DNA from: Desulfovibrio desulfuricans DSM 642
Lineage (GTDB): Bacteria > Desulfobacterota > Desulfovibrionia > Desulfovibrionales > Desulfovibrionaceae
Assembly (NCBI RefSeq): GCF_000420465.1
Contig: NZ_ATUZ01000013.1
Location: 124,001 to 188,000 of the forward strand
Direction of reading: 5' to 3'
DNA length: 64,000 nt
The position numbers were made by a program, and so were the translations under genes. Position 1 is the first letter of the stretch. Each line of letters opens with the position of its first letter. Positions 4,357 through 29,109 of the stretch are shown here, piece by piece. The notes beneath the pieces were generated by a model. It made no database searches. It saw only the letters and a list, made by a program, of their open reading frames with translations, and had not been told where the DNA came from.

Positions 4357-5334
4357 ATGGCCAATCCTGTTGTAAACATCACCATACCTGTTTTTAACAG
4401 GTATCATCTTACGCAGAAGACGCTGGTGGCTCTGCGCAAAACAGCACCAAGCATTTCATTTGCGGTTACAGTGGTGGACAACGGCAGCGATCAATCCCTG
4501 CGTGATCGGCTGGTGGAACTGCACAAAGACGGGATTATCGACAATCTCTTTCTGCTGCCGCGCAATATGGGCATATCCTGCGCCTGCAACATCGGCTGGC
4601 GCGCTGTGGACGCCCCCTATTACATGAAGCTCGACAACGATATGGCGGTAATAACGCCCCACTGGCTTGAGAATCTTTTCAGGCTGTGGGCGCACGGGGC
4701 CCCTGTTTCTACACTGGGGCCAACATTCAAAGCGCATGATATGGTGAAAAACCCAGGCACGATCACCAGCGAAGACGGCATACTTGGCATTTGCAATTCC
4801 AATTTAATGGGGAGCGCCATTATCATCCCCAAAAGTGTTTCAGACATACTGGGCTGCTGGAGCGAAGATTACGGCCTCTACGGCGCAGATGACGGGGATT
4901 ACGGTGCCCGCATGAACTGCGCCGGATTGCCGCAATACTATTATGACGCCAATGATTTTTTTGTAAACGGCGGCAAGTACGACAATTCGGAGTACGAAGA
5001 TACGGATCTGAATAAGGGCAAGGAACATGCCCGGCTGTTCAAGGATGAGTCCGGCGGTATGGGATTGTTTGTATTGAATTATCATCTGTACAACATGTGT
5101 GTTCGCAACTGGAAGGTGCCCTTGCGCTACCGCATCAAGGATATGGATGGTTATAACGTCGTGCTGGAGGAAGATCCCGCCTATGCGCCCATTCAACAGG
5201 CCCTGAGTCGCAGCAAGGAGCTGCTGGACAATCTTGTTGCGGCAGGCCGCACTAACGACGTTTATTCAGATGCCGTGGTGAATCGTCTTAAAAGAATCTG
5301 GAAAGGCTGCGGGCAGGAATGCGCCCCCTTGTGA
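4357..5334 (+). CDS. Family 2 glycosyltransferase
   Basis: This 325-residue cytoplasmic protein has a GT-A fold N-terminus: NITIPVFNRYHLT, then VVDNGSD (about residues 39-45), and the metal-binding KLDNDMAV segment with DND at 93-95. These mark an inverting family 2 glycosyltransferase using a nucleotide-sugar donor. The C-terminal 150 residues are acidic and aromatic, with no membrane helix. A GGAGTG site precedes the ATG. It may be co-transcribed with the amidotransferase, and a perfect hairpin follows its stop codon. Acceptor and sugar are unknown; a role in surface polysaccharide or protein glycosylation is only a guess. Confidence 0.85.
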   Translation: MANPVVNITIPVFNRYHLTQKTLVALRKTAPSISFAVTVVDNGSDQSLRDRLVELHKDGIIDNLFLLPRNMGISCACNIGWRAVDAPYYMKLDNDMAVITPHWLENLFRLWAHGAPVSTLGPTFKAHDMVKNPGTITSEDGILGICNSNLMGSAIIIPKSVSDILGCWSEDYGLYGADDGDYGARMNCAGLPQYYYDANDFFVNGGKYDNSEYEDTDLNKGKEHARLFKDESGGMGLFVLNYHLYNMCVRNWKVPLRYRIKDMDGYNVVLEEDPAYAPIQQALSRSKELLDNLVAAGRTNDVYSDAVVNRLKRIWKGCGQECAPL

Positions 5335-5358
5335 ATGCACTTTTTGGGGGCAGGAAAT

Positions 5359-5399
5359 AACATCAGGGGCTGTCAGCAATGCCGACAGCCCCTGATGTT
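5359..5399. terminator. Bidirectional terminator, 16-bp perfect stem
   Basis: The arms 5359-5374 and 5384-5399 are perfect inverted copies around a 9-base loop, and a T-rich tail follows on the plus strand. It lies between the convergent glycosyltransferase and secreted-protein genes and can serve both. Confidence 0.85.
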
Positions 5400-5433
5400 T
5401 TATCAATCCTTGAAATTGGCCGAGAGAATTCGC

Positions 5434-5889
5434 CTACTTAGGCAGCAAACTGGCGTATTCCGCACTCTTTACATATTTTTTGATAAATGCCAGGCCAAGC
5501 TTGCGGTCACCGGTGATAGTCGTGACCATAAAAATATCGCCAGACGCCGCCACCCATGACTGGCAAGGGGTCTGCTGCTGGGTGAAGGCAAAGGTGTATT
5601 GTCCGTTTTTTTCCACCGGGGGCTTGAGCGCCTTGAACTGGTTGGCGAACATTTCGGCAACAGTTTTGGTATCCGCGCCGCCGTTGGGCCCGGTCACAAA
5701 ACCCACCGTGGAATTGCCCGAAGCATTTGAAAAGATAACGGTGGTGGTTCCCTGATTTTCTGTGGGAGCCATAACGGCCTTCCAGTTGTCGGGAAGGTCT
5801 ACGGAAATATACTTTGTACTCACCTCATCTGCCAGCACGGGCGTGGCCAGGAGCATGACAAAAAGAAGAACCGCAAATTTTCTGAACAT
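5434..5889 (-). CDS. Secreted protein of unknown function
   Basis: This 151-residue protein has a classic signal peptide (MFRKFAVLLFVMLLATPVLA, cleavage after A20) and a small alpha/beta body that opens with a YISVDLPDNWKAV motif reminiscent of PsbP/DcrB-like folds. One Cys (about residue 109) remains in the mature part, so there is no internal disulfide. It is expected in the periplasm. The AGGAG site lies 8-9 bases before the ATG. It is a single-gene unit between two terminator-bounded neighbours, and a 15-bp palindrome lies 53 bases upstream. I do not recognise a specific family. Confidence 0.75.
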   Translation of the reverse strand: MFRKFAVLLFVMLLATPVLADEVSTKYISVDLPDNWKAVMAPTENQGTTTVIFSNASGNSTVGFVTGPNGGADTKTVAEMFANQFKALKPPVEKNGQYTFAFTQQQTPCQSWVAASGDIFMVTTITGDRKLGLAFIKKYVKSAEYASLLPK

Positions 5890-9871: not shown

Positions 9872-9899
9872 CGCAAAATAGTCTACCAACGCCCTGGCC

Positions 9900-9948
9900 C
9901 TGGTAGGAGTTATCAGCAAATGCGGTTCAAGGGGAACTCCATCCCCTG
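9900..9948 (-). promoter_or_regulatory. Fluoride riboswitch (crcB motif) aptamer
   Basis: The minus strand from 9948 to about 9900 carries the crcB-motif landmarks in order: GGGGATGGAGTTCCCC, then AACCGC, then GCTGATAACTCCTACC. The GGAGTT loop can pair with AACTCC to form the known pseudoknot. Together with the downstream terminator and crcB this is a complete fluoride switch. The spurious 68-codon open frame covering it is not a gene. Confidence 0.92.
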
Positions 9949-9953
9949 AGTGA

Positions 9954-9982
9954 TTTCTACATCTGCCGGGGCCGCAAGTAAA
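9954..9982 (-). promoter_or_regulatory. Candidate promoter of the crcB transcript
   Basis: TTTACT (9977-9982) and TAGAAA (9954-9959) are 17 bases apart on the minus strand. Transcription would start just before the aptamer, so the fluoride unit need not depend on the BASS gene upstream. Confidence 0.4.
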
Positions 9983-14237: not shown

Positions 14238-15524
14238 GTGTCTGATGCTGTAAACAGGGGCAAATTCCCCAATGTTTCGCGCTGTTCCGACAGCCAGATT
14301 CTTTTTGCTGCCGCGCGCAAGGGTGGGGTCACGCTTTGTCTGCTTGGGCTGGCGCTGATTTTTTGTTTTTCGCCCCTGCTGCGATCCGGGGCCTCGGCTG
14401 CGCAGGCCGCGCCCGCCAAGACAAGCGCGGGCAGTGCCGCGCCATCGCTGGACGTCATGATCGGCTCCATGCTCATGCTGGGCTTTCGCGGGGCGGATCT
14501 GCCCCAGGGCGATGCCTTTCTTGCGCTGGTGCGCGCCGGGCATGTGGGGCATATTATCCTGTTTGACCGGGATGTTACCACCGGCGGTGAACGCAATATC
14601 ATTTCGCCCCAGCAGGTGCGGCGGCTCACGGCCACGCTGCGGTCGGCGTCCCCCTGCCCCATGTTCATAGCTGTTGATCAGGAGGGCGGACGGGTGCGGC
14701 GGCTCAAGCCGCAACGCGGTTTTGCCGATCTGCCTTCCGCCCAGAACATGGGCGCGGCCAGCCCGGAGAAAACCCGCGCCATCGCCCGGCAGCTGGGTGT
14801 GGAACTGGCCTCGCTGGGAATTTCTGTTGATCTGGCCCCGGTGGCGGATGTGAACAGCAATCCCGCCAATCCGGCCATTGGCGCGCTGGAGCGCAGCTTC
14901 AGCCCCAATCCGGCGCTTGTGGCCGCGCACGCGCTGGCCTTTGGGCAGGGGCTGGCGCAAAGCGGCATCATCCCCGCGCTCAAGCATTTTCCCGGTCAGG
15001 GCGGCGCGCAGAAGGATTCGCATCTGGGGCTGACGGACATCACCCGCAGCTGGAATGCCAAGACCGACCTTGCGCCCTACGCGCAGGCCTTTGCACAGGG
15101 CTGGCCCGGCATGGTGATGCTTGGGCACCTGTACCACAAGGGGCTTGATCCGCAGTATCCTGCCACGCTTTCCCGCGCTGTTGTTGCCGACCTGTTGCGC
15201 GGGCGCATGGGCTGGCGGGGCGTGATCATCAGCGATGACATGCAGATGAAGGCCATCACCGACCATTACGGCATGGAGCAGGCAATGCTGTTGGCCGTCA
15301 ACGCCGGGGTGGACATTCTGCTGTTCGGCAATAACTTGTATTGGGACGAAACCCTGCCCCGCAAAGCCTTTGATGCCTTGCGCGGGCTTGTGGAAAGCGG
15401 GCGCATTTCGCGCCAGCGGATCATGGAATCATGGCTGCGCATCACTAACCTGTACGCAAGCCGCGCCACTGCCGCCAGGGCCGCCGCCGATGGATCTTCG
15501 GCGTTCTATCCCTGGACCAGATAA
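14238..15524 (+). CDS. nagZ: Beta-N-acetylhexosaminidase, GH3 family (NagZ-like), membrane-anchored
   Basis: The 428-residue protein begins with GTG after a GAGGT site. Residues about 30-55 are a hydrophobic segment that could be a signal anchor or signal peptide, so the enzyme probably acts outside the cytoplasm, unlike E. coli NagZ. The GH3 barrel shows FIAVDQEGGRVRRL, VDLAPVADVN, ALKHFPGQGG followed by KDSH (about 259-262, the Asp-His dyad), and VIISDDMQM near 329-337 with the nucleophile. It would remove GlcNAc from peptidoglycan fragments. The usual KHFPGHG motif reads KHFPGQG (Gln254). It is followed after 15 bases by the candidate selenoprotein gene. Confidence 0.85.
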   Translation: MSDAVNRGKFPNVSRCSDSQILFAAARKGGVTLCLLGLALIFCFSPLLRSGASAAQAAPAKTSAGSAAPSLDVMIGSMLMLGFRGADLPQGDAFLALVRAGHVGHIILFDRDVTTGGERNIISPQQVRRLTATLRSASPCPMFIAVDQEGGRVRRLKPQRGFADLPSAQNMGAASPEKTRAIARQLGVELASLGISVDLAPVADVNSNPANPAIGALERSFSPNPALVAAHALAFGQGLAQSGIIPALKHFPGQGGAQKDSHLGLTDITRSWNAKTDLAPYAQAFAQGWPGMVMLGHLYHKGLDPQYPATLSRAVVADLLRGRMGWRGVIISDDMQMKAITDHYGMEQAMLLAVNAGVDILLFGNNLYWDETLPRKAFDALRGLVESGRISRQRIMESWLRITNLYASRATAARAAADGSSAFYPWTR

Positions 15525-15539
15525 AGCGGCGGAGGTTTT

Positions 15540-15737
15540 ATGGATACATTGATTCTCCTGCTGGTGTTTGGCGGTATTGCCGCCATATACCTGCTTGCCC
15601 TCAAAAAAGGCTGGCTGCCCACAGACCGGCTGAATTGCGGTTGAATACCCTTTGACAAGCAGCGTGCCCTGCTTGATGACGAAGAACGGCGTTTGCGCAG
15701 CAAGGCCAGAAAAGCCGCCCGCAAACAGTGTAAGTAA
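15540..15737 (+). CDS. Candidate small membrane selenoprotein (in-frame TGA as selenocysteine)
   Basis: An ATG with a strong GGCGGAGG site opens a frame of 65 codons ending in TAA at 15735-15737, interrupted only by TGA at 15642-15644. If the TGA is read as selenocysteine, the product has a membrane helix (about residues 3-21), a KKGW turn, the motif N-C-G-U (Cys33, Sec35), then a highly charged tail (about residues 38-65, rich in Asp/Glu then Arg/Lys) ending CK. The two halves are in the same frame with no other stop. A hairpin beginning 11 bases after the TGA matches bacterial SECIS geometry. Layout (one helix plus Sec in a charged tail) recalls eukaryotic SelK/SelS, but no homology is claimed. 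It lies 15 bases after nagZ and before a terminator. The alternative is a 34-residue peptide or a nonsense-disrupted gene. Confidence 0.65.
15656..15675 (+). promoter_or_regulatory. SECIS-like hairpin downstream of the in-frame TGA
   Basis: CAAGCAG (15656-15662) pairs perfectly with CTGCTTG (15669-15675) around the 6-base loop CGTGCC. The loop begins 18 bases after the TGA and has G in its second position. Published bacterial SECIS models call for a hairpin whose apical loop starts roughly 16-37 bases after the TGA with a G at the start of the loop, so the geometry fits. Confidence 0.6.
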
Positions 15738-15749
15738 CTGATTGAAATC

Positions 15750-15782
15750 AAAGCCCCCGCTCCTTCATGGAACGGGGGCTTT
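15750..15782. terminator. Bidirectional terminator between selenoprotein gene and cytochrome operon
   Basis: The 10-bp arms 15750-15759 and 15773-15782 (AAAGCCCCCG and its inverse) flank a 13-base loop. It sits 12 bases after the candidate selenoprotein stop and 77 bases after the end of the convergent cytochrome operon. Confidence 0.8.
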
Positions 15783-25636: not shown

Positions 25637-26503
25637 TTATAGCCCTTTCCTCGCCAATGTGCAACGGTTAAGTTGGGCAATGTCCCGTTTATTTTCAATT
25701 TTTTTGAAAATTCCCGTTGCAGACAGCATTTCGTGTACGGCATCCGCCTGATTTGCGCCGTGCTCCAGCAAAACCCAACCGTCATCCTGCAGTGCAAGCG
25801 CGGCTGCATCCACGGCTGCTTTCAGGTGGAGCAGGCCGTTGTTTTTAGAGAACAGGGCGCTATGCGGCTCGTTGTGCAGCACTTCATCCATAACCATGTG
25901 CCGCTCGGCATCAGCTATATATGGAGGGTTGCTCACAAGCAGGCGCAGTGATTCCGGCTTGAGCGGCGGAGTACGCATGTCTGCCCGCAGCGCCGTTATC
26001 CTGCTATCCACACTATGCCGCTCTGCATTCTGCGCGGCAACGGCAATGGCATTGGGGCAGATATCCAGCAGAATACCGCTCCAGCAGGGGCGCTCCGCCG
26101 CCAGAGTGATGCCAATGCAGCCCGTGCCAGTGCCCAGGTCAGCAAAGCTGAGGCGTTCTTCCGGCAGCAGCTCCAGAGCATTGTCCACAATGAGTTCCGT
26201 TTCTGGTCTGGGAATAAGGGTGTGCCGCGTAACCGCAAAGTCACGTCCATAAAATTCCTTGCGCCCGATGATCTGGGCCAGGGGTTGCCCCGTGGCCCGG
26301 CAGGCCACCAGCGCCAGAAACTCTTTTTCTTCCCTGTTTGTCAGCTCCCGCCCTGCCTCCAGAATGCAAAACAGGCGGGCGGATCCGGAAGGATCTCCTT
26401 TTAGCGTTTCGCGCGCCAGCACTTCTGCGCAAAGGCGGGGGCTGTCCACCCCCGCCTTTGTCAGTTGTTCTGTCGCTTCATCTATATATTGCTTGAGGCG
26501 CAC
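25637..26503 (-). CDS. prmC: Peptide chain release factor N5-glutamine methyltransferase
   Basis: The 288-residue protein has the N-terminal helical domain and a class I methyltransferase domain with FADLGTGTGCIGITLA (SAM-binding glycine loop) and LLVSNPPYIADAE (the NPPY motif that recognises the glutamine side chain). It methylates the GGQ glutamine of release factors 1 and 2. It begins with GTG just beyond the lon stop codon (5-base gap), with CGGAG inside the end of lon, so the two are translationally linked. Confidence 0.93.
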   Translation of the reverse strand: MRLKQYIDEATEQLTKAGVDSPRLCAEVLARETLKGDPSGSARLFCILEAGRELTNREEKEFLALVACRATGQPLAQIIGRKEFYGRDFAVTRHTLIPRPETELIVDNALELLPEERLSFADLGTGTGCIGITLAAERPCWSGILLDICPNAIAVAAQNAERHSVDSRITALRADMRTPPLKPESLRLLVSNPPYIADAERHMVMDEVLHNEPHSALFSKNNGLLHLKAAVDAAALALQDDGWVLLEHGANQADAVHEMLSATGIFKKIENKRDIAQLNRCTLARKGL

Positions 26504-26508
26504 GAATG

Positions 26509-29109
26509 TCAGGCTCCGGCTTCTGCGGGCCGCTTGGGCTTTCTGGCGCCAGCGGTTTTGGCTGTTGCCGTCCCATTGGCAGCTACGCCTGTGGATTCTT
26601 CCACCTTGCTTTTGCCGCCCTTGCCCGTTGCGGAACTGCCGCGCCCGCCCTTGGTTTCAAACACGATGGGCAGCAGCTCGTCATAATGGTGCACAGGGTG
26701 CACGGTGATGCGCTTGAGCAGTTCCTTGGGCACATCCTCGAGGTCTTTGACGTTCTGGTGCGGAATGACCACATGCTTGAGGCCGCGCGCCACGCCCGCC
26801 AGAATCTTCTCCTTGATGCCGCCCACAGGCAGCACCCGGCCTTGCAGGGTGATTTCGCCGGTCATGCACAGGTCTGCGCGCACACGCCTTCCGCTCAGGG
26901 CGGAGATGAGGGCCGTGGTCAGCGTAACGCCTGCCGAGGGGCCGTCCTTGGGCGTTGCGCCCGCAGGCACGTGCACGTGCACGTCGTATTGCGACACAAA
27001 GCCGGGGTCAACGCCAAGGTCTTCCGCACGGCTACGGATGTAGCTCAAGGCCGCCTGGGCGCTTTCCTTCATCACATCGCCAAGCTGCCCGGTGAGGGTA
27101 AGGCCTCCCTTGCCCTTCATGACAGTGGCTTCAACTGTCAGCACTTCGCCGCCAGCGGGCGTCCAGGCCAGGCCCAGAGCCATGCCGGGTATGAGCTTCT
27201 TTTCCTTTTCGTCCTCAATAAAGCGGGGCGCGCCCAGCAGCTTTTCCACATCGGCCACGTCAACCATGAAGGGCGGCTTTTTGCCCTCGGCCTTGCGGCG
27301 GGCCAGTTTGCGGCAGATGGAGGAAAGCTCGCGTTCAAGGTTGCGCAGCCCAGCCTCGCGCGTGTATTCTCGGATGATCTTTTCCAGGGCTTCTTCCGTC
27401 AGTTCCACATCCTTGGGTGCAAGGCCGTTGTCTTCCACCTTTTTGGGCAGCAGATGCTTGCGGGCGATCTGGGCCTTTTCCTGCAAGGTGTAGCCGGGCA
27501 GGGAAATGACTTCCATACGGTCGCGCAGGGCCGCCGGAATAGTTTCCAGATGGTTGGCCGTGCAGAGGAACATAACCTTTGAAAGATCAAAGGGCACGTT
27601 CAGGTAGTGGTCGCTGAAGGTGTAGTTCTGTTCCGGATCAAGCACTTCCAGCAGGGCGGATGAGGGATCGCCCCTGAAATCCGCGCCCAGCTTGTCCACT
27701 TCGTCCAGCACAATAACGGGGTTGCGCGTACCGGCCTGCTTGAGGGCCTGAATGATGCGCCCCGGCATGGCGCCTATGTAGGTGCGCCGATGCCCGCGGA
27801 TTTCCGCCTCATCGTGCATGCCGCCCAGCGAAAGCCGCTGGAATCTGCGGCCCAGCGCCCGCGCAATGGAGCGCCCAAGCGAGGTTTTGCCCACGCCGGG
27901 AGGGCCCGCAAAGCAGAGGATGGGGCCCTTGGACTGCGGATTGAGCTTGCGCACGCTCAGGAATTCAAGGATGCGGTCCTTGATTTTGTCGAGCCCGCAG
28001 TGGTCTTCGTCAAGAATTTCCTTGGCATGGACAATATCCAGCCTGTCGCGCGAAAGCTTTTTCCACGGCAGTTCCACCAGCCAGTCAAGGTAGGTGCGCA
28101 CCACGTTGGCCTCGGAAGAGTCGGCGTGCATGCCCGAAAGGCGGCGCAACTGCTTGTCGGCTTCCTTGCGCACGTCCTTGGGCAGGCCTGCTTTTTCAAG
28201 GGCCTGCTTGAGGTTTTCAAGGTCTTCCTCGCCGTCTTCATCCTTGTCGCCAAGTTCGGTGCGGATAGCCTTGAGCTGCTCGCGCAAAAAATAATCCTTC
28301 TGCGCCTTGTCCATGCCTTCGCGGGCCGAGCTCTGTATGCGCGCCTGCACGGTGGCGACTTCCACCTCGCGTTGCAACTGTGTGTTGACCAGCATGAGGC
28401 GGTCAATGGGATTCTCCGCTTCGAGAATGCGCTGTGCATCTGCGGTTTTCATGCGCATATTGGCGGCGATAAGGTCGGCCAGGCGGCCCGGATCGTCCAC
28501 ACCCTGCAAAACTGCAAGCACGTCTGGCGAGGAAAGACCGCGCAGGGTCAGCACCTTTTCGCTCTGCTCGCGCACGGAGCGCAACAGAGCCTCCACCGTG
28601 GCATCTACCACAGGGATTTGTTCGGGCAGGGTTTCGATGCGCGCTTCAAGGAATGGTTCCACCTGACGGTAGCCCGTAACCCGTGCGCGGCTGACGCCCT
28701 GCACAAGAATTTTCACCCGCGAATCGGGCATCTTGAGCATGCGCATAACCTGCACCACGGTGCCGACCTCGTAGAGGTCTTCCGGCTTGGGGTCTTCGGT
28801 GGCTTCTTCTTTTTGCGCGCACACAAGCAGGTGCCGTCCGTTTTTCAGGGCTGCGTCCACGGCCTGCACGGATTTGTCGCGCCCGATAAAGAGCGGCAGG
28901 ATCATATAGTTGAAGATAACCACGTCTCGAACGGGCAACACGGGCAGCGTGTCGGGAATGCTCTGCGCCGCTGTATTGAGGCTGCCCTCGTGATCCAGCG
29001 CTTCGGGCGCGTTCATTTCCGCCTTGTCCGTTTCGCTGTCGATGGCAGGTTCTGCCTCAATGGGCTCTTCCTGATGCAGCAAAATGTCTTTTTCATTGAT
29101 GTCAGCCAT
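26509..29109 (-). CDS. lon: ATP-dependent protease Lon
   Basis: The 866-residue Lon protease has an N-terminal substrate-binding domain beginning LPVLPVRDVVIFNYMILPLFIGR, the AAA+ module with Walker A GPPGVGKTSLG, and the serine-lysine protease domain with TPKDGPSAGVTL (nucleophile Ser) and GGIKEKILAG (Lys). The N-terminus has an acidic extension of about 50 residues and the C-terminus a Gly/Ser/Lys/Ala-rich tail of about 45 residues, both outside the usual core. It degrades misfolded and regulatory proteins in the cytosol. The start has GGGGAG upstream; radC ends 26 bases before. Confidence 0.96.
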   Translation of the reverse strand: MADINEKDILLHQEEPIEAEPAIDSETDKAEMNAPEALDHEGSLNTAAQSIPDTLPVLPVRDVVIFNYMILPLFIGRDKSVQAVDAALKNGRHLLVCAQKEEATEDPKPEDLYEVGTVVQVMRMLKMPDSRVKILVQGVSRARVTGYRQVEPFLEARIETLPEQIPVVDATVEALLRSVREQSEKVLTLRGLSSPDVLAVLQGVDDPGRLADLIAANMRMKTADAQRILEAENPIDRLMLVNTQLQREVEVATVQARIQSSAREGMDKAQKDYFLREQLKAIRTELGDKDEDGEEDLENLKQALEKAGLPKDVRKEADKQLRRLSGMHADSSEANVVRTYLDWLVELPWKKLSRDRLDIVHAKEILDEDHCGLDKIKDRILEFLSVRKLNPQSKGPILCFAGPPGVGKTSLGRSIARALGRRFQRLSLGGMHDEAEIRGHRRTYIGAMPGRIIQALKQAGTRNPVIVLDEVDKLGADFRGDPSSALLEVLDPEQNYTFSDHYLNVPFDLSKVMFLCTANHLETIPAALRDRMEVISLPGYTLQEKAQIARKHLLPKKVEDNGLAPKDVELTEEALEKIIREYTREAGLRNLERELSSICRKLARRKAEGKKPPFMVDVADVEKLLGAPRFIEDEKEKKLIPGMALGLAWTPAGGEVLTVEATVMKGKGGLTLTGQLGDVMKESAQAALSYIRSRAEDLGVDPGFVSQYDVHVHVPAGATPKDGPSAGVTLTTALISALSGRRVRADLCMTGEITLQGRVLPVGGIKEKILAGVARGLKHVVIPHQNVKDLEDVPKELLKRITVHPVHHYDELLPIVFETKGGRGSSATGKGGKSKVEESTGVAANGTATAKTAGARKPKRPAEAGA

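Follow-up and report, generated by a model that had tools for sequence, protein, structure and literature searches.

The eukaryotic selenoproteins SELENOK and SELENOS are small proteins with one N-terminal transmembrane helix, a selenocysteine (Sec) on the cytoplasmic side and a charged, flexible remainder. Their Sec lies near the C-terminus, and their SECIS element is located in the 3' UTR. In the bacterial SECIS (bSECIS) model, as described in PMC13188914, the UGA is followed by a stem-loop with a G in the first two loop positions and a loop 16-37 nt from the UGA. The same 2026 inventory counts 119 prokaryotic selenoprotein families and subfamilies; judged by name and motif, none of the entries of its Table 1, which gives no topology, is a small single-helix membrane protein with C-G-U.

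The window analyzed here is a stretch of 64,000 nt from Desulfovibrio desulfuricans DSM 642, and all positions refer to it. The first-pass annotation had described an ATG with a strong ribosome binding site that opens 65 codons with a single in-frame TGA at codon 35, and the sequence and its translation confirmed this. Positions 15540-15737 of the + strand comprise 34 codons beginning with ATG, the TGA, a further 30 codons and a TAA. When the TGA is read as Sec, the translation is MDTLILLLVFGGIAAIYLLALKKGWLPTDRLNCGUIPFDKQRALLDDEERRLRSKARKAARKQCK*. The features of the locus are as follows.

14238-15524, + strand: glycoside hydrolase family 3 (nagZ-like) gene, 15 nt before the ATG (PF00933, E 8.4e-65)
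15531-15535, + strand: ribosome binding site GGAGG, 4 nt 5' of the ATG (sequence)
15540-15737, + strand: putative selenoprotein gene, 65 codons, in-frame TGA, TAA stop (translation, homologues, pN/pS)
15543-15605, + strand: codons of the predicted transmembrane helix, residues 2-22 (AlphaFold2, Kyte-Doolittle)
15636-15644, + strand: putative Cys-Gly-Sec motif, with C, G and TGA invariant in 12/12 homologues; the TGA is at 15642-15644
15654-15728, + strand: codons of the predicted cytoplasmic charged helix, residues 39-63 (AlphaFold2, moderate confidence)
15656-15675, + strand: bSECIS-like hairpin, 7-bp stem, apical loop at 15663-15668 (folds, low synonymous variation)
15750-15782, + strand: possible transcription terminator, 10-bp inverted repeat AAAGCCCCCG/CGGGGGCTTT with a 13-nt loop (by eye)

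The repeat of the possible terminator starts 12 nt past the TAA. A hairpin scan with loops of up to 8 nt did not report it and gave only a weaker, overlapping hairpin at 15762-15778, which is no more than shuffled sequences give (1 versus a mean of 0.8).

The expectation by chance was estimated from the window ORFs that are split by a TGA with at least 30 codons before and at least 25 after it. In total, 222 such ORFs were counted, 24 of which had a comparable hairpin, and 3 of these 24 also had an ATG with a ribosome binding site. Besides the gene studied here, the three include 4357-5559, which from its translation looks like an ordinary glycosyltransferase with a true TGA stop and was rejected, and 26241-26576 on the - strand. 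Given these 222 ORFs, the gene anatomy without conservation is unconvincing; the gene stands above chance because the TGA occupies the same codon in all 12 homologues.

A search of whole genomes gave strong matches in 12 of the 79 genomes of the genus (E 1.4e-38 to 8.9e-22), each with an inner TGA. In all of them the TGA is at the identical codon, within Cys-Gly-TGA-[IV]-Pro-Phe-Asp-Lys, and the start codon has a GGAG no more than 16 nt away. C33, G34 and the PFDK block 3' of the TGA are invariant in 12/12, as are R42, A43, L45, E49 and R51 further downstream. The N-C-G-U motif named by the first-pass annotation therefore stood in its C-G-U part; the leading residue is N, S or T. The other expectations of that annotation were borne out in that position 35 has a sense codon in none of the 12 and the 16 residues after the TGA are well conserved. 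The 12 carriers, all from a single genus and several of them closely related, encode 11 distinct proteins (two are identical) with 59-100% identity to the window protein.

Wider searches used 348 genomes of the order and 395 genomes drawn evenly from the phylum, sets that overlap with each other and with the genus set. The profile search of the order returned the same 12 carriers and 6 weak matches (E 0.015-0.047), and the phylum draw returned 7 carriers, all within the 12, and 4 weak matches beyond the genus. A single-sequence scan of species genomes gave one 'Deltaproteobacteria' MAG contig, whose gene sequence is identical to that of G013. Among the genus matches listed at E up to 1, which fall in 40 of the 79 genomes, the next best after the 12 had an E of 0.035, and those past the 12 were taken as chance. 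Four weak matches with an inner TGA, L059-L062, were rejected, as the TGA is in a C-G-TGA motif in none of them; the weak genus matches also include G020, which has two TGA codons, and G010, which has a TAA. The four weak phylum matches (E 0.0066-0.0095) are about the number expected at E 0.01 in 395 genomes, and three of them (L056, L057 and L058; G560 was left out) have by eye no properly placed membrane helix.

The in-frame UGA is thus conserved, and coding conservation was found on both sides of it. Over all pairs of the 12 homologues, pN/pS in the reading frame was 0.25 over the 32 codons that precede the TGA. The 17 codons that directly follow it gave 0.42, whereas the shifted frames after the TGA gave 1.74 and 1.01. 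Since the ratio past the TGA is low in the reading frame only, the downstream part looks translated in frame with the upstream part. The rise to 0.42 is partly due to the scarcity of synonymous change: pS was 0.118 in the eight hairpin codons versus 0.511 in the part preceding the TGA (0.605 and 0.395 for the halves of that part), and was 0.480 in the six codons 3' of the hairpin. From the 18th codon after the TGA onward, the tail is divergent (pN 0.481). Residue-invariant positions with one codon only numbered 4 of 5 in the hairpin versus 3 of 18 elsewhere (Fisher P 0.017), a test on few codons (5 versus 18) in a region picked after inspection. The hairpin codons GAC, AAG, CGT and CTT were each kept in 12/12, with CGT as the Arg codon of the loop throughout; in four nearby genes, CGT makes up 4% of the Arg codons and CTT 15% of its codon family.

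The hairpin, CAAGCAG-CGTGCC-CTGCTTG at 15656-15675, starts 11 nt past the TGA, and its 6-nt loop begins 18 nt past the TGA with a G at loop position 2. It agrees in these respects with the first-pass annotation, which had given the same stem, loop and spacing, and with the bSECIS model as described in PMC13188914. The loop sequence CGTGC and a CAAGC/GCUUG stem were kept in all 12 homologues. The stem extends by A-U and G-C to 7 bp in eight of them, whereas the remaining four (CGG/CAG) have a G/A clash at the stem top that interrupts the upper stem; two of these four, when folded, continued the stem through two G-C pairs, with one A bulged out and a loop of 5 nt. RNAalifold gave 7 pairs and 0 compensatory changes for the 12 homologues. 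The 49 nt from the TGA folded at -11.4 kcal/mol with z = -2.22 (4 of 200 shuffles were as stable), a 64-nt stretch from the window was not unusually stable (z = 0.21; 102 of 200 shuffles), and the hairpin regions of four other homologues, in single folds, had only a small excess of stability over shuffles (z -0.65 to -1.17). The support for the putative element is sequence conservation, not covariation or stability; accordingly, the SECIS proposed by the first-pass annotation held up in its conserved hairpin and loop, but compensatory changes are absent and the stem top clashes in 4/12. The computed hairpin of the selD SECIS in the same genomes likewise has an apical loop that contains G. In 6/6 selD genes folded, this loop lies 19-20 nt past the UGA, versus 18 nt here, and the stem is more stable, at -20.6 to -27.9 kcal/mol for 52 nt versus -11.4 for 49 nt.

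The first-pass annotation had also named selA, selB, selC and selD as genes to be sought in the genome, and all four were found, so that SelA, SelB, SelD and tRNA-Sec are encoded there; its fdhA has an in-frame TGA. Among the 12 carriers, selA and tRNA-Sec were detected in 12 each, and selB (over the cut-off) and selD in 11 each, with an inner TGA of its own in all 11 selD genes. No selB was found in G017 (40 contigs, 99% complete), nor by PF09107, and no selD in G063 (160 contigs, 100% complete). Both are draft genomes whose nearest relatives among the carriers have the missing gene (selB in G088; selD in G000 and G084), and our guess is therefore an assembly gap in each. A tRNA-Sec gene was found in 56 of the 79 genus genomes (E 1e-12 or better), including all 12 carriers (P 0.011 for the overlap, ignoring kinship). 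The conserved recoding signature is observed together with the presence of the Sec machinery. The tRNA-Sec gene at G000:C13:118719-118808 lies on the same contig as the window, about 5 kb before its start and about 21 kb from the putative selenoprotein gene.

The location downstream of nagZ given by the first-pass annotation holds for 6 of the 12 homologues, and the other six are elsewhere. Three contexts were distinguished: the gene follows a nagZ-like gene in six genomes, has EAL/GGDEF and MCP-domain (chemotaxis-receptor) genes nearby in four, and is near fliD in two. These groups agree with the sequence groups of the homologues; Pfam names were obtained from one or two genomes in each group, and the others were assigned by BLAST clusters. 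In three of the four genomes of the EAL/GGDEF group an ORF of 256 amino acids lies upstream, and the one member scanned had no Pfam match. The nagZ-like gene of the window scored 187.7 bits against NF003740, below the cut-off of 207, and its position next to the putative selenoprotein gene would be a candidate link at most. Because the context differs among the three groups, no operon partner was inferred and none of the contexts supports a function; the gene looks self-contained.

Several other elements were noted around the homologues and in the window. A 21-nt palindrome, TTGAAATGC-N3-GCATTTCAA, is located upstream of the homologue at L003 and L010, in G017 at 27-48 nt before the start. It was considered as an operator in G017 and G088 and was not used, as it has 68 and 64 copies in these genomes, respectively, with at most 1 mismatch. 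At the same threshold there are 32 copies in G066 and 34 in G070; 4 were counted in the genome of the window, 1 in G084 and 0 in the other 6 of the 12 genomes, and the sequence read backward gave 0 in all 12. A dispersed element and an operator are candidate readings of it. At L004, an AT-rich palindrome-like stretch, TTATTATTAATAATAA, lies roughly 80-100 nt before the homologue start, and a weaker one lies roughly 50-65 nt before the start at L013; by eye, we take both to resemble Fur/PerR-type boxes. A fluoride riboswitch (54.8 bits) was found at 9897-9955 on the - strand of the window.

Sec decoding competes with termination, and the codons up to the TGA would by themselves encode a complete membrane peptide, preceded by a ribosome binding site. 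The UGA and the hairpin might thus act as an attenuator, a selenium-responsive switch whose meaningful products are the longer form when selenium is high and a membrane peptide of 34 residues when it is low. However, invariance is no weaker at many residues after the TGA (PFDK, R42, A43, L45, E49 and R51) than on its 5' side, suggesting that selection acts on the full-length protein, and no downstream gene is in conserved order across the three contexts; we consider such a switch quite unlikely. Considerably less likely is an ordinary UGA stop followed by a separate small ORF that is translated by re-initiation at TGA-GTG. A GTG directly follows the TGA in 6 of the 12 homologues, but the other six carry ATA (3), ATT, ATC or GTT, and GTT is no start codon. 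With a usual start codon in only 6/12, separate translation of the tail is not conserved, and the frozen hairpin codons and the invariant Cys-Gly before the TGA would be left unexplained.

A pseudogene, a sequencing error or a chance ORF could be suspected in a window that holds 222 TGA-split ORFs, but against the same-codon TGA in 12 separate species genomes and the purifying selection on both sides its probability is negligible. An open frame that is conserved on both sides of the TGA would also result if readthrough inserted one of the ordinary amino acids, such as Trp via a near-cognate tRNA, and the residue at codon 35 is not readable from DNA. Nevertheless, the carriers have the Sec machinery, the hairpin sits close to the SECIS register and the TGA is replaced by a sense codon in 0/12 homologues. 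Readthrough proteins with canonical residues are, moreover, described as quite rare in prokaryotes (PMC1914089), and this reading seems very improbable here, slightly less so than re-initiation.

In summary, a selenoprotein family explains the data far better than any of the alternatives, and the selenoprotein interpretation of the first-pass annotation is supported by the TGA in 12/12, the Sec machinery and the conserved hairpin. Judged from sequence, 15540-15737 is probably (about 90%) a genuine selenoprotein gene of an apparently undescribed family, and the insertion of Sec at codon 35 appears, if anything, a shade more certain.

The predicted protein was modeled with AlphaFold2 (whole model: mean pLDDT 68.9, pTM 0.31), which gave a helix at residues 2-22 with a mean pLDDT of 86 for residues 1-20, placed C-G-U in a poorly defined linker and predicted a helix at 39-63 with moderate confidence. 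The 19-residue Kyte-Doolittle maximum was 2.58-2.95 in 12/12 homologues, so that both analyses predict the membrane helix that the first-pass annotation had described. Membrane anchoring is considered highly likely. By the positive-inside rule for membrane topology, the lack of K/R in the first four residues and the 12-15 K/R from residue 23 onward in the 12 homologues point to a protein that is probably N-out, C-in. In the proposed mechanism, SelB on the hairpin 11 nt past the UGA would deliver Sec-tRNA(Sec), and the ribosome would decode the UGA as selenocysteine to give a protein of 60-67 residues. The N-terminal helix would anchor this protein in the inner membrane and place the Cys-Gly-Sec pair at the cytoplasmic face, with the charged helix next to it. 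A redox role of Cys-Gly-Sec is rather more probable than the opposite, and would most likely be thiol/selenol chemistry beside the membrane, either as a relay that forms a selenenylsulfide or as a reductant of peroxide or polysulfide that serves a membrane partner.

The homologues had been expected to carry TGA or Cys at codon 35; TGA was found in 12/12, but no convincing Cys homologue was found among the 79 genus, 348 order and 395 phylum genomes (overlapping sets). A Cys at the Sec position is a usual but not strictly required mark of selenoprotein families. One weak phylum match, L056, reads KGWLRFDQSVCGCVG; its motif is C-G-C, with a Cys where the Sec would be. It is immediately preceded by a stop, its upstream segment is not hydrophobic, and it was rejected as a probable chance match. 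The deep-Sep report states that Cys homologues now seem to exist for all known selenoproteins, and its authors note that families without them may be filtered out by their method (PMC12013277); an earlier survey describes such families as scarce (PMC1914089). The missing Cys form counts against the selenoprotein claim, as nearly all selenoproteins reportedly have one. Tentatively, and at somewhat less than even odds, we propose a Sec-obligate family, in which sulfur cannot replace selenium and no Cys form exists, and which would be the first small single-pass membrane selenoprotein family of such shape in bacteria. This proposal runs against the view expressed in PMC12013277. Homology-based selenoprotein searches depend on Cys homologues, and a TGA in 12/12 without a detected Cys form would show that Cys-less families exist and get missed. 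Selenogenomes could then include short membrane proteins that gene finders would truncate, and an easily tagged 7-kDa protein would be a test case for why selenium, not sulfur, is needed.

The window protein had no Pfam-A or NCBIfam (release 20) match at E up to 1. The 12 members matched five Pfam/NCBIfam families with one member each, the best being CBF_beta at E 0.038, and none was thereby placed in a curated family. A PDB profile of core-binding factor beta (best E 0.0021) covers profile positions 22-56 at most, without the membrane helix, and was rejected as a chance likeness. Relatives were not found in viral contigs, phages or plasmids, and no description of the family was found among open-licence papers, although it may be described elsewhere.

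Compared with the families listed in PMC13188914, the new one likewise has its UGA in a redox-like motif, and CxU motifs are given there for rhodanese form 3, UshA-like, ferredoxin-thioredoxin reductase and thioredoxin-like Sec.1. The hypothetical proteins DG, DW and DF of deep-Sep are also domain-less predicted selenoproteins, but all three are reported with Cys homologues (PMC12013277), unlike the new family. Their motifs are GUxG, GxU and none given (PMC13188914), and it is by these descriptions and by the absence of an NCBIfam match that the new family is set apart from them. Its resemblance to eukaryotic SELENOK and SELENOS is in shape only: the hairpin follows the UGA directly, within the coding region, and the putative Sec lies in the middle of the protein as C-G-U. 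The family is thus new in its sequence, its shape and its absence of a detected Cys form, whereas its decoding is standard bacterial.
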